The notes under the pieces were generated by a model, which had not been told where the DNA came from, made no database searches, and saw only the letters and a program-made list of their open reading frames with translations. The translations under genes and the position numbers were made by a program. A DNA stretch of 39,399 nt from an uncultured Candidatus Saccharibacteria bacterium (GTDB lineage Bacteria > Patescibacteriota > Saccharimonadia > Saccharimonadales > Saccharimonadaceae): the NCBI GenBank assembly GCA_947302765.1, contig CAMYWN010000003.1, forward strand, positions 1-39,399, read 5' to 3'. Shown one piece after another: positions 2,789 to 32,507 of the stretch (its first letter is position 1; each line of letters opens with the position of its first letter).

Positions 2789-2864
2789 GGCCTGGTAGCT
2801 CAATGGATAGAGCAGCTCCGTCCTAAGGAGAAGGTTGTGCGTTCGACTCGCACCCGGGTCACCA
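2789..2864 (+). tRNA. tRNA-Arg (anticodon CCT)
   Basis: The cloverleaf folds by eye. Acceptor GGCCTGG pairs with CCGGGTC (two G-U pairs), D-stem GCTC/GAGC, anticodon loop GTCCTAA with anticodon CCT at 2822-2824, T-stem GTGCG/CGCAC with loop TTCGACT. Discriminator A is followed by an encoded CCA. The top pair of the anticodon stem (27-43) is a G-A mismatch. It reads AGG codons. Its 3' 21 nt (from C56 to A76) recur at 2995-3015. Confidence 0.93.
2844..2864 (+). repeat. 21-bp direct repeat, copy 1 (tRNA-Arg 3' end)
   Basis: Starts at C56 in the T-loop and ends with the CCA tail. It is identical to 2995-3015, 151 bp downstream, like the duplicated core of a tRNA attachment site. Confidence 0.95.
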
Positions 2865-2866
2865 AA

Positions 2867-2966
2867 TTCGAGTTAAAAGCCGGCATCTCGGCGTTTTTTT
2901 GCTCGCTCGATCATAAATCGCACTTCGCAAGAATAAAACACCGATCTGTCGGCTTTTATTCTCAAA
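2867..2966 (+). other. Type-I structured hairpin element after tRNA-Arg
   Basis: Imperfect inverted repeat of about 36-40 bp per arm (2867-2902 with 2927-2966), with an inner stem CGAT/ATCG (2908-2911 with 2917-2920). The inner stem is flanked by unpaired TCGCT and CACTTCG. The left arm contains GCCGGCATCTCGGC followed by seven T, so it can also end the tRNA transcript. The same loop motif and layout recur at 32257-32364. Confidence 0.75.
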
Positions 2967-2994
2967 TGAGAAATCATAACCGAATCTAGCGATG

Positions 2995-3015
2995 CGACTC
3001 GCACCCGGGTCACCA
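2995..3015 (+). repeat. 21-bp direct repeat, copy 2 of the tRNA-Arg 3' end
   Basis: Perfect copy of tRNA-Arg positions 56-76 including CCA, with no tRNA body in front of it. It ends 7 bp before the -35 of the next gene. Confidence 0.95.
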
Positions 3016-3021
3016 TTTTTG

Positions 3022-9800: not shown

Positions 9801-11850
9801 TACCTTGTCTCCTTCTTTGTTCTTTACTAAGCTCAGAGGCGTCCAGGATGAAGTAATTAAAACTCTCTTCTTTTTTGGGATTCTTCGCATTGATATATGC
9901 TGTTAGAAGGTTGCCCGACACATCATCAAGGCCCATCTTATTTCTGATATCTTCGTCTTGTTTTATAAGAAAGGCTATGTCGCCGGCGTCAAATGATGTC
10001 TGCCAGAATTCTGGTTTAGGGCCGCTGACATCAAAATACTTGGAAATGATTTCTCGTCTCTCCTCTTGGGTGCGTGTCTCTTTAACTATCCCGGAGCTCG
10101 ACACGACGTCATACGTCTGTAAAAAACCGTTCGTCGCATCGTCAAAGCCTGTCTCCTCTTTATCTTGAGTTGCCAGAAAATTGTAATCTCCTTCCCGTAG
10201 TGCATATTGATAAAATTCAGGTTTGAGGTTGCCGGATTCGTCGAAAAACTGCCAATACCGTAATTGGACATTGTTATAAAAGCTCGTACTCATAGCTTCG
10301 CTACCTTGGTTTATGAAGGCTAACGCCTTATTTTGCATCTTTTCAAACAAAGAGATTCTCTTTTTTTCATGCTCGCTAAGAATAGAATGTGGTGGACTAG
10401 TGGAAGGATTTCGAGCTACACGGTGATACCAATAATTGTTCGGTTCTCCTTGATTATCAAAGAAATCAGAATATTCTTGACCTTTATATAGTTCTAAACG
10501 ATCTTTCTCCGTAAAGTCATTCTTAGAGGCTTTTCTAATGGTGTCATTTTTAGAAATAGATTCGGGATAATTGTCGAATGATTCGCGTCGTCTCATGTCT
10601 TCTAAAATATCACGATTGGACGCGAGTATTAAGAACGGAGCGGGTGGGCGCTCGGAATGCATGGTTTTGTTTTTCATTTGATGTTCTATCTCCCCCATAA
10701 TCGTTTCCTGGATGGCTGTTTGCTTTAGCGCCTCTTGGAATTCATGGCTCTGAGCCCAGGATTCGACTTCTGCCACTGCAACCCTATAATCGTCCTCCAT
10801 GTGGATTCTGGAAAAAAGGCGCATGACCGATTCATCGGAAAAGTTTAGTTTTTCCAGCTGTTTTTGGAAGTTACCCCGGAGTAGTACTTCAAGTTTGTTC
10901 TCCCCCGACTCTACTAAGGCTTGGCTCCAATACTTTATGTCGGGGCTGTTGCCTTCTGGCACAATATGTGCTTTTGAGGCGATATCCATAATACTAAAAC
11001 CGGATTCTCCGGCGGACTGAGGGTTGTTAAGCATGTCCCCAATTATTCTTTCGTATTCTTGTCCGTCAAATAAGTTATTTTGGATGAGAAACTCCGTTCC
11101 GGCAGATATTGTAGCTACTGACTTTTCGTCATGATACTGGCCCCAACGTTGATCTTTCAACAAGCATACCCCTGACTGTTTGAGAACCTTAAGATCGGAG
11201 ATCTTCTTCCTATCATACGGCTCATTACTAATAATTGCGTGTATTTCTGAATCTAGGTCGTATATATATCTTTTATTATTAATGAAGTTCTTCTGGAATT
11301 TTTCTGCACCCTCTTTAGTCTGGGACATTGTTTGATAAATTTCAGAAAGCTTGCCGTCACCTATACGTTCAGGAGATCCCACCATGCCAGAATAAAAGTC
11401 TTCGTTCTCAAGCACTATCGACACGGGCATGTCGTATTTTTTAATGAATCTCCACGCATTCCCGTAGTACGTTCCACGGAGACCGCCTATATTATAACTA
11501 GGTTGGGAAGCTTTGCACAGCTCTTCGGCAAATTTGCGGGACCATAAGCCTTCACTCTTTTTCTTAAATTCTTCTACTATTCGTTGCTGTTGTTCTGATA
11601 ATTCTGATTCATAGCCGAGAATAGTGGGTTCACTTACTAGGGCATCTTTGTTATTAGTAAAGAACTCTAAAGCCTCTTTGCGACGAGCGTTTAGAACTGG
11701 CTGCTGCAATTGCTCGATTGTCTTATCCTTTACCAATCCAGCAAGAGTGATTGCCTTATTCCCGAACTGACCGGCGAGAGCCGCAACAGAGCTCCATGGA
11801 CTGTTGTCTGATTGGCTTTTACTATTAACTTCTTCACCTCCATTTGCCAT
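6859..11850 (-). CDS. Giant uncharacterised protein, 1663 aa, with repeated PEFWQ motifs
   Basis: I do not recognise this family. No signal peptide or membrane helix is evident, so it may be cytoplasmic or exported by an unusual route. In the middle four degenerate repeats centred on residues about 541, 610, 723 and 797 share the pattern K-P-E-F-W/Y-Q ... GD..LLakQDe ... GfDdat..F. Near residue 1480 a Cys cluster (RACLSCKTKG, then NNDTNLTLGDGN and a further Cys) could bind metal or be an active site. The last 100 residues include IEFGGENARASG and IEIIINSPQTI strands. The ATG at 11850 is 6 bp after TATAAT with no Shine-Dalgarno. It is transcribed divergently from the Xer recombinase gene. Confidence 0.85.
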   Translation of the reverse strand: MANGGEEVNSKSQSDNSPWSSVAALAGQFGNKAITLAGLVKDKTIEQLQQPVLNARRKEALEFFTNNKDALVSEPTILGYESELSEQQQRIVEEFKKKSEGLWSRKFAEELCKASQPSYNIGGLRGTYYGNAWRFIKKYDMPVSIVLENEDFYSGMVGSPERIGDGKLSEIYQTMSQTKEGAEKFQKNFINNKRYIYDLDSEIHAIISNEPYDRKKISDLKVLKQSGVCLLKDQRWGQYHDEKSVATISAGTEFLIQNNLFDGQEYERIIGDMLNNPQSAGESGFSIMDIASKAHIVPEGNSPDIKYWSQALVESGENKLEVLLRGNFQKQLEKLNFSDESVMRLFSRIHMEDDYRVAVAEVESWAQSHEFQEALKQTAIQETIMGEIEHQMKNKTMHSERPPAPFLILASNRDILEDMRRRESFDNYPESISKNDTIRKASKNDFTEKDRLELYKGQEYSDFFDNQGEPNNYWYHRVARNPSTSPPHSILSEHEKKRISLFEKMQNKALAFINQGSEAMSTSFYNNVQLRYWQFFDESGNLKPEFYQYALREGDYNFLATQDKEETGFDDATNGFLQTYDVVSSSGIVKETRTQEERREIISKYFDVSGPKPEFWQTSFDAGDIAFLIKQDEDIRNKMGLDDVSGNLLTAYINAKNPKKEESFNYFILDASELSKEQRRRQGISEASDALLDSILNLAEESTAPWFDRSNNIVSLFDKASGLPKPEFWQLCLEAGDFLLLAKQDRLFRANVIGFDETINTFLDQYKKIEGSIILEKAKTDDRVREAIDRYFTPNGPKPEFWQDSFAVKNFSLLARQDEETRKSMGFDEATMAFINGAAGKVFAGEKRTIDESNVIQALTRFINKDADDWSDSSEDDLLIKEAFDGNDVKDLSLAKLRSLYGEYLKNGNSMQFPNVLTAMADYMHSKGGAGPLTQIEAFLDYAGALGNSMQEAKKDDDWRNELITNVATIEGMMQKYRWDNQEKSNFYATSAEIINASPELFREFTQLFVNNLSKEEFKAFTGEIYPLYRAKLALLREYEDHSNGIGEGYTTIKYNPSDIDNLKNQLHTALLPFNCKEVSMEKRRKGIERVKENIFSEISELFKTKFSIRPEAIPSELSKADARVVGDMTLYLGNLAQPNQQKKDILGFYLALQLDRDQTAWKKLRSGEDVSPSNYLDIVSSFGVEQAVEQSRRNNPITLESTRIDNPERLIEFRRALQNETVSMRFGNIQTVDLRLQNLRGNMEELIDPDLYPEGIDRQRVELLRELPSQKEFNKIIGTIQQRMMGKDIPLTDEGQLIMGRVEQILKDNDLEVNTNNIKQYFQTDMKTIQVPFRILESIDSYGVVDSIKELQRMLNPPDNVVQILEKLGEAPKPQSGVMALGEDLDFLENLMVKKANELTENETNTLGEYLGSIRKKLTELDSIYGKVVENYNTMKKNGVHPSTLNQIKEIDKIISNEANQSVITTTCTNEMTTIIENMRACLSCKTKGINNDTNLTLGDGNIFYMCSSESASRGSSVADEIVYFVPSEDENGANKRLSFVMDRIYGMKNSDIMMAHIETILKKAHELKSGFPKVPISVILPDSSINSCSASVDAMELSRRIGSGDGFEDIRDKTVTVPESGFGDHYIEFGGENARASGPRKVSGIEIIINSPQTIATVPSQ

Positions 11851-11856
11851 AAGCTT

Positions 11857-11880
11857 ATTATACTACAAATTTGTTATAAT
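11857..11880. promoter_or_regulatory. Overlapping divergent promoters around a perfect palindrome
   Basis: TATAAT boxes at 11857-11862 (minus) and 11875-11880 (plus) face outward, each 6 bp from an ATG. Between them is the perfect palindrome ACAAATTTGT (11865-11874). With so little space each promoter's -35 region overlaps the other's -10, so the two genes may be expressed alternately or share a regulator. Confidence 0.6.
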
Positions 11881-11886
11881 ATAGAT

Positions 11887-12825
11887 ATGGACATCTACGA
11901 GCTGATTAATGATTTTTTGGAGCATCTTGAAGTTGAGGCGGGACGGAGCAAGAAGACGGTTGAGAATTATCGGCTGTATCTAGAGAGGTTCGTAGAAATC
12001 GCGCTAGACGTAAGTGGCAAGAATGAGATTCGGCCACAAGACATCACAAAGGAACTACTTAGAAAGTATCGCATTAAGCTAAACCGCTACGGGTCTGAGA
12101 ACGGTAATGATGACTTGAAGACCATCACGCAGGCGTATCATCTGATTGCGCTGAGAGGTTTCCTAAAATATCTAGCGCGACGCGATATTAAATCACTGGA
12201 TCCTTCCCTAGTGGATTTGCCACACGTAATTCGCAAACAGGTAACATTCTTACACTACGACGAGGTGGAGGATATGCTCGAACAAATAGATACATCCACT
12301 GAATCAGGGCTACGAGATAGGGCGATTATTGAGCTTCTGTACTCTGGAGGCTTACGCGTATCAGAGTTAGTGGGGCTGAACCGCGATTCGATTAACCTGG
12401 AAAGACGTGAATTTATGGTGCGCGGGAAAGGCTCTAAGGATAGGCCGATATTTATCTCGCAGTCGGCGGCGGACAGAGTGCGAGATTATTTGGATGCGCG
12501 GACCGATTCCCTGCCGGCTTTGTTTCTTAATAACTCAAGAAACCTGCAGACGGCTGACACTTCGGGTAATTATCGGCGGATGACGACGCGCTCGGTAGAA
12601 CGAATTGTAGAGAAATATGCCAGGCTGGCCGGTATCACAAAACATGTCTCCCCGCATACATTAAGGCATTCATTTGCGACGGATTTACTGATGAACGGAG
12701 CGGATATCAGAGCGGTACAGTCGATGCTGGGGCATGCAGATATTTCGACAACGCAAATTTACACACACGTAACAGATGTACATCTCAAGGAAATACACGA
12801 TAAATTTCATTCAGAGACTAAATAG
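11887..12825 (+). CDS. xerC: Tyrosine recombinase XerC/XerD family
   Basis: 312 aa, typical Xer length. An N-terminal SAM-like core-binding domain (about 1-105) precedes the catalytic domain. All active-site residues are visible: Arg157 in GGLRVSE, Lys184 in KGSKDR, His257 and Arg260 in HTLRHS, His283 in LGHADI, and nucleophile Tyr292 in IYTHV. It probably resolves chromosome dimers at a dif site together with FtsK, which is also in this window. The ATG at 11887 is 6 bp after TATAAT without a Shine-Dalgarno. Integron-integrase inserts are absent. Whether it acts as a single Xer or has a partner cannot be told here. Confidence 0.92.
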   Translation: MDIYELINDFLEHLEVEAGRSKKTVENYRLYLERFVEIALDVSGKNEIRPQDITKELLRKYRIKLNRYGSENGNDDLKTITQAYHLIALRGFLKYLARRDIKSLDPSLVDLPHVIRKQVTFLHYDEVEDMLEQIDTSTESGLRDRAIIELLYSGGLRVSELVGLNRDSINLERREFMVRGKGSKDRPIFISQSAADRVRDYLDARTDSLPALFLNNSRNLQTADTSGNYRRMTTRSVERIVEKYARLAGITKHVSPHTLRHSFATDLLMNGADIRAVQSMLGHADISTTQIYTHVTDVHLKEIHDKFHSETK

Positions 12826-32105: not shown

Positions 32106-32180
32106 TGGACCGTCGCCAAGCGGTAAGGCACTGGGTTTTGGTCCCAGCATTCGCAGGTTCGAATCCTGCCGGTCCAGCCA
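32106..32180 (+). tRNA. tRNA-Gln (anticodon TTG)
   Basis: Acceptor TGGACCG pairs with CGGTCCA, discriminator G, encoded CCA. Anticodon stem CTGGG/CCCAG holds the loop TTTTGGT with anticodon TTG. T-arm GCAGG-TTCGAAT-CCTGC is standard. The U1-A72 pair is typical of glutamine tRNAs. It reads CAA and, by wobble, CAG. Its 3' end is repeated twice more downstream. Confidence 0.95.
32160..32180 (+). repeat. tRNA-Gln 3'-end repeat, copy 1
   Basis: C56 to A76 of the tRNA: identical over 21 bp to 32487-32507, and over its last 18 bp to 32242-32259. Confidence 0.95.
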
Positions 32181-32221
32181 AGATGAAAAAATAGCGAGCT
32201 TGCTCGGTATTTTTTTATCTT
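32180..32221. terminator. Bidirectional terminator-like hairpin after tRNA-Gln
   Basis: Two 20-nt arms pair at 18 positions around TT, with A-rich left and T-rich right arms, GCGAGC/GCTCG at the tip. It can end the tRNA transcript. Confidence 0.8.
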
Positions 32222-32241
32222 GCGACCGGTCTTGGATGAAT

Positions 32242-32259
32242 ATCCTGCCGGTCCAGCCA
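32242..32259 (+). repeat. tRNA-Gln 3'-end repeat, copy 2
   Basis: ATCCTGCCGGTCCAGCCA, an 18-bp copy of the tRNA end without a tRNA body. Its last bases form the base of the next hairpin. Confidence 0.93.
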
Positions 32260-32364
32260 GACTAGCTAAAAGCCCCTAATAAGGGCATTTTTCTTGCCTC
32301 GCTCGTCATTAGACGCACTTCGGCAAGAGAAAATACCCTTCTAGGGGCTTTTAGTTTAGTCTGG
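32257..32364 (+). other. Type-I structured hairpin element after tRNA-Gln
   Basis: Arms 32257-32298 and 32322-32364 pair over about 42 bp with few mismatches (CCAGACTA ... TAGTCTGG at the base). The loop TCGCT, inner stem CGTC/GACG, then CACTTCG has the same unpaired bases as the element after tRNA-Arg, while both stems differ in sequence and stay paired. Confidence 0.8.
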
Positions 32365-32416
32365 TTAGCGATTGGCAGGATGAAAACCGTAGGTTCGGAC
32401 GTCGTAGGAGGTGAGT

Positions 32417-32446
32417 AAAAATCCCAAATCTTGTTTGGGATTTTTT
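32417..32446. terminator. Terminator-like hairpin in the third repeat interval
   Basis: AAAAATCCCAAA pairs with TTTGGGATTTTT around a short loop. It is followed by a GC-rich stretch (about 32450-32486) with no recognised content, then repeat copy 3. Confidence 0.7.
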
Positions 32447-32486
32447 GAACCGACGCCCGGCGTAGTGGGCGAGCGCAGCGAGGCCA

Positions 32487-32507
32487 CGAATCCTGCCGGT
32501 CCAGCCA
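32487..32507 (+). repeat. tRNA-Gln 3'-end repeat, copy 3
   Basis: Perfect 21-bp copy of tRNA positions 56-76, 327 bp from the tRNA's own end. Confidence 0.95.

Follow-up and report, generated by a model that had tools for sequence, protein, structure and literature searches.

The window, i. e. the whole stretch of DNA analysed here (39,399 nucleotides), contains two tRNA genes, and both are followed by copies of their own 3' ends (Table 1). The last 21 nt of tRNA-Arg(CCT), CGACTCGCACCCGGGTCACCA (2844-2864), have a perfect second copy at 2995-3015, 151 bp downstream from start to start, and this copy has no tRNA body. This 21-mer occurs twice in the window. As 2000 random window pieces of 536 nt shared at most 8 nt with it, the copy is far beyond chance. 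The interval between the repeats folds as a whole with z = -4.2 relative to shuffles, and its 130 bp, which contain no ORF of at least 60 aa and no site-specific recombinase, are too short for an integrase. On these points our analysis agrees with the initial annotation, which had described a tRNA-Arg 3' end duplicated around a structured hairpin (2865-2969 in our analysis) without room for an integrase; the same arrangement at tRNA-Gln had not been mentioned there. The gene downstream of the tRNA-Arg locus encodes a substrate-binding protein; orthologues of it occur in Candidatus Saccharibacteria, a large number of which come from ruminant guts. A gene for a XerC/XerD-like tyrosine recombinase, as read from its sequence, is located at 11812-12825, about 9 kb from the tRNA-Arg repeat.

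Table 1. Features of the two tRNA loci in the window
Feature	Position	Strand	Description
tRNA-Arg(CCT) gene	2789-2864	+	source of the copied 3' end (2844-2864)
X1 hairpin	2865-2969	+	long covarying stem straight after the tRNA-Arg CCA; model R2
X1 apical motif			TCGCTC-stem-loop-stem-CGCRCTTCG
Class C tail	2970-3015	+	decayed inverted T-arm (about 2979-2994) and 21-nt tRNA-Arg copy
T-run	3016-3020	+	directly after CCA in empty sites of relatives
tRNA-Gln(TTG) gene	32106-32180	+	second instance in the window
First unit after tRNA-Gln	32181-32259	+	terminator-like hairpin, copy-complementary arm, copy at 32239-32259 (18 nt exact)
Second X1 hairpin	32258-32364	+	
Class A structured unit	32365-32507	+	ends in tRNA-Gln 3'-end copy, 32487-32507 (21 nt exact)

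The 46 nt of the window ending at position 3015 can be aligned with units of 12 congener loci. Their consensus is GGGAGTCGNACCTANCGGTG followed by the copy, and in most of them the copy is preceded by a sequence similar to GAGTCGGACCTAGCGGTG. The tRNA-Arg copy belongs to the short class C, here with an X1 hairpin in front of it.

In the genome of the window (a ruminant-gut Saccharibacteria assembly of 919 kb in 110 contigs, 87% complete), an exact copy of the gene's own 3' end of at least 16 nt was present within 600 nt downstream of 15 of the 37 tRNA genes that had enough downstream sequence. Thus the window repeat is one member of a large set. The copies lie within about 400 bases of the tRNA, mostly at +151 to +192, and the tRNAs concerned include Arg, Tyr, Lys, Asp, Val, Ser, Gln, Glu, Leu and Ala. 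When each tRNA was compared with the DNA downstream of other tRNAs as a swapped control, the rate was 0.24%. Copies of at least 12 nt were found behind 14 of 33 tRNAs in one genome from another family of the same order, behind just 2 of 34 in a congener, behind 3 of 30 in a genome from another class of the phylum and behind none of 79 in Evansella, the Bacillota control. These counts indicate that the trait is patchy and common in parts of the order. An assembly artefact could be ruled out because the pattern recurs across many independent assemblies. When the window and the unit loci were searched with Rfam, tRNA was the sole family above the cut-off. A scan of viral contigs did not find the class A hairpin motif, and a literature search on tRNA-associated repeats in Saccharibacteria returned nothing relevant.

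The units share a common plan. A hairpin after CCA is followed by an inverted copy of the tRNA's own T-arm, a partial direct T-arm, one or two hairpins and finally the 3' strand of the T-stem with acceptor and CCA. For class A, folding and alignment of our own units gave the order post-CCA hairpin, arm complementary to the copy, hairpins 2, 3 and 4, and copy. Hairpin 2 is GAACC..GGTTC, and hairpin 3 has conserved internal-loop letters (GGTAGGAGCCGA / GAGGCGACGCC). In units from the other family it could be read that arm and hairpin 2 are the inverted T-arm of the own tRNA and then a partial direct copy. Across 47 units the inverted segment scored 10.9 against the own tRNA and 7.6 (sd 1.7) against foreign ones, and the direct T-stem segment carried a weak tRNA-specific signal. 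Own arm and own copy pair with -14.9 kcal/mol, versus -9.8; within the copy, the arm pairs best with the T-stem portion and more weakly with the acceptor portion.

In the class A alignment, which was fitted to the model so that the figures are biased towards it, all 36 of 36 pairs showed double changes, and 94.6% of cells were paired, versus 63.8% after shuffling and 41-48% after sliding. An unfitted alignment of 12 class A sequences still had compensatory changes in 27 of 36 pairs. Wobble pairs were few, with 63 G-T against 28 A-C. Units behind tRNA genes served to train the class A model, whose search nevertheless ignores tRNA position. Of the 86 matches examined, 62 had a tRNA at most 800 nt upstream, at a distance of mostly 34-47 nt, and the copy often ended at the last base of the model. 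Matches were also found in other classes of the phylum. R1 matches without a nearby tRNA were mostly partial, lower-scoring or at contig ends; one of them, in genome G000, abuts RNase P RNA. In several units the copy is decayed on its CCA side, which indicates that the CCA end is not always needed. One class A unit (L162:1765-1912) lies 1.7 kb downstream of the 3' end of tRNA-Glu, which is copied where the unit ends; the unit was either displaced or separated from the tRNA by a later insertion.

X1 is a second, separate structured family placed mostly at tRNA ends. Compensatory changes occur in 27 of its 36 pairs, and its wobble count was 41 G-T against 27 A-C (p = 0.11). Among the 30 X1 loci fetched, 24 were at most 130 nt from a tRNA 3' end, most of them at most 3 nt; two of the remaining loci touch 16S rRNA ends and a few lie elsewhere. 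The 16S rRNA genes were identified by eye from the flanking sequence; X1 adjoins a 3' or 5' end of such a gene at L227 and L233. In a search of 60 genomes the family was limited to the genus of the window. X1 may possibly act as a signal for RNase III or for termination.

Relatives with the same downstream gene were compared for the presence of the tRNA-Arg unit. Three of them (L120, L133, L134) have a single copy of the 3' end, with CCA followed directly by the T-run, i. e. the empty site that the initial annotation had proposed to look for. In L119, L121-L123, L125 and L138 an extra piece is present exactly between CCA and T-run. L130 has two copies in tandem, and tandem copies also exist in L057 and L060. 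Related cores were found behind different tRNAs as well, e. g. behind Tyr in G000 and Gln in G007 (84%). Together with the empty sites in relatives, this shows that units come and go. For the nearest-neighbour cores the picture is mixed: 16 belonged to the same amino acid in another genome, 7 to another tRNA in the same genome and 34 to neither, which indicates neither pure inheritance nor pure mobility.

The copy can follow changes of its tRNA. The Val units of G006 and G018 have cores that are 99% identical; their acceptor alleles differ, the copy follows the allele, and the inverted arm is unchanged. In the Gln units of G000 and G007, copy and arm both follow the acceptor change. In G010 the copy did not follow the acceptor allele. 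Conversion between tRNA and copy is presumably at work here, and with it an exchange of cores between units.

A small RNA of E. coli provides the closest likeness. RtT RNA (rttR, tyrT/tyrV operon) sits behind a tRNA gene in tandem copies and ends in a copy of its own tRNA's 3' end including CCA, as the Saccharibacteria units do. In E. coli K-12 tyrV is followed by three units of 178 bp, all of which terminate with 19 nt copied from the tRNA 3' end; the annotated 3' end of rttR is the CCA of the first copy. The Rfam model RtT (RF00391) had four hits on E. coli (133-138 bits), namely the three tyrV units and the tyrT-tyrV spacer. The E. coli unit consists of an arm (GGGGAAGGAT) complementary to the copy, a GAGAA..GGTTCG hairpin, further hairpins and the copy, and this order matches that of class A. 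The Saccharibacteria units differ from RtT in that they occur behind many tRNA types per genome, are tailored to them, have other inner hairpins and form several classes. With the RtT model the best match in the whole genome of the window had an E value of 0.035 (21.7 bits, cut-off 45), and ten of our own loci gave no match at E up to 1. Conversely, the three E. coli units gave no significant match to model R1 (E 0.096). Since neither model finds the other's units significantly, homology or membership in RtT is not established. According to PMC4986893, which refers to Bosl and Kersten (1991), RtT was reported to be released from the transcripts of tyrT and other tRNAs and to affect the stringent response; PMC2965389 cites the same work for rtT-like sequences noted within BIMEs.

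These comparisons lead us to regard the units as probable RtT-like tRNA-trailer RNA elements, greatly expanded and tailored to each tRNA, where the likeness lies in the shared layout and the covariance models have no significant cross-match. In the folded RNA the inverted arm would pair with the direct copy and thereby rebuild part of the T-stem/acceptor helix with a CCA tail, a proposal derived at the DNA level from sequence, pairing and, for class A, covariation. By analogy with RtT, the units would be transcribed with the tRNA and trimmed to a small RNA by tRNA-processing enzymes, and they may function as RNA. As hairpin 1 resembles a terminator, they may be reached by read-through only. 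The direct repeats would allow clean loss of a unit, which leaves an empty site, or its tandem amplification. The copy would stay matched through conversion with its tRNA, and cores would pass from one tRNA gene to another when units exchange them.

The initial annotation had interpreted the duplicated 3' end as the hallmark of site-specific insertion and the locus as a minimal mobile or mobilised element, or a remnant of one. Empty sites, exact junctions and tandem copies in relatives speak for part of this reading. A single site-specific insertion or its remnant does not fit, as the same arrangement recurs behind 15 of 37 tRNA genes. Each copy moreover fits its own tRNA, the inverted T-arm is tRNA-specific, unlike an attL/attR duplication, class A units covary, and the E. 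coli RtT locus has the same plan. Integrative elements that target tRNA genes resemble the units in the duplicated tRNA 3' end, the exact empty sites and the core from T-loop to CCA. They differ in that the units have no integrase or cargo, an interval of roughly 60-190 bp, many cores per genome and an inverted T-arm inside. No integrase-type insertion is indicated at the units. A non-autonomous form of mobility, in which a trans-acting recombinase or transposase inserts small palindromic elements at tRNA 3' ends and the copied end is an attachment site or target duplication, is unlikely but deserves to be taken most seriously among the alternatives. It would account for the orthologous empty and filled sites with exact junctions, for the tandem arrays, for similar cores behind different tRNAs such as the Tyr and Gln pair and for the scarcity of wobble pairs. 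Yet the inverted T-arm is tRNA-specific too, and there is no fixed attachment core, since many different tRNAs are involved and every copy fits the one it follows. Y1 transposase, the sole candidate class of enzymes tested, was found once in G000 and in none of the 11 congeners searched (G001-G011), several of which hold units; it was therefore ruled out as the mobiliser. The lone gene in G000 (C66:3430-3786, L362) is IS200-like and lies near tRNA-Phe. REP/BIME sequences are also short palindromic repeats able to serve as terminators, but the units are not dispersed and sit mostly at the ends of tRNAs or other stable RNAs, classes A and C bear tRNA copies, and the congeners searched lack the Y1 transposase. 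It also seems doubtful that the units are a new class of small elements of Patescibacteria which move among tRNA genes and gain direct and inverted copies of the local 3' end, a self-tailoring process that would possibly be RNA-templated.

The scarcity of wobble pairs makes the units less RNA-like than expected and would also fit DNA palindromes whose arms template switching keeps identical. Low wobble content in both class A and X1 thus keeps an explanation at the DNA level alive. In its pure form, the units would be a functionless by-product of template switching at tRNA genes, which creates micro tandem-inversion duplications, with quasi-palindrome correction keeping the arms matched. The order direct, inverted, direct is what a double template switch yields, and the inverted as well as the decayed copies speak for it. 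However, the same plan, shared motifs and covarying helices return at numerous tRNAs and extend to other classes of the phylum, and the 79 Evansella tRNAs examined had none, so that we consider such an origin improbable. It is hardly conceivable that the copy is what remains of a tandemly duplicated tRNA gene without its 5' part, the case which the initial annotation had named as evidence against insertion. The copy does hold the 3' end of the tRNA alone, but a degenerate tandem tRNA leaves the inverted arm and the shared hairpins unexplained: in place of tRNA remains, the units contain family hairpins and an inverted T-arm, no 5' part or body of a tRNA in direct orientation was found upstream of the copy, and copy and tRNA have different downstream flanks. 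This candidate is contradicted by the anatomy of the units.

The RtT repeats behind E. coli tRNA-Tyr were long a local oddity. The tRNA-trailing self-copies of Saccharibacteria are a large, undescribed set with a layout previously known from the E. coli tRNA-Tyr operon. With the same plan behind more than one third of the tRNA genes in some Saccharibacteria, the trailing self-copy becomes a general design open to comparison, e. g. with regard to the tRNA segment that is copied, the way in which it stays matched and the role of the trailer RNA. It is also a warning that a duplicated tRNA 3' end alone is not evidence for integrase-type insertion.

A motif resembling hairpin 3 was also seen in a GC-rich, structured-looking stretch at about 560-800 of L164 as well as in L108, L110 and L111. 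This stretch recurs in congeners, had no Rfam match at the gathering score when L164 was tested and may be an undescribed RNA. In G000, matches similar to hairpin 3 and X1 were located at the 3' end of and inside the RNase P RNA gene (C38, about 2347-2715, L165), which suggests that hairpins of this kind are present in further stable RNA genes, too.
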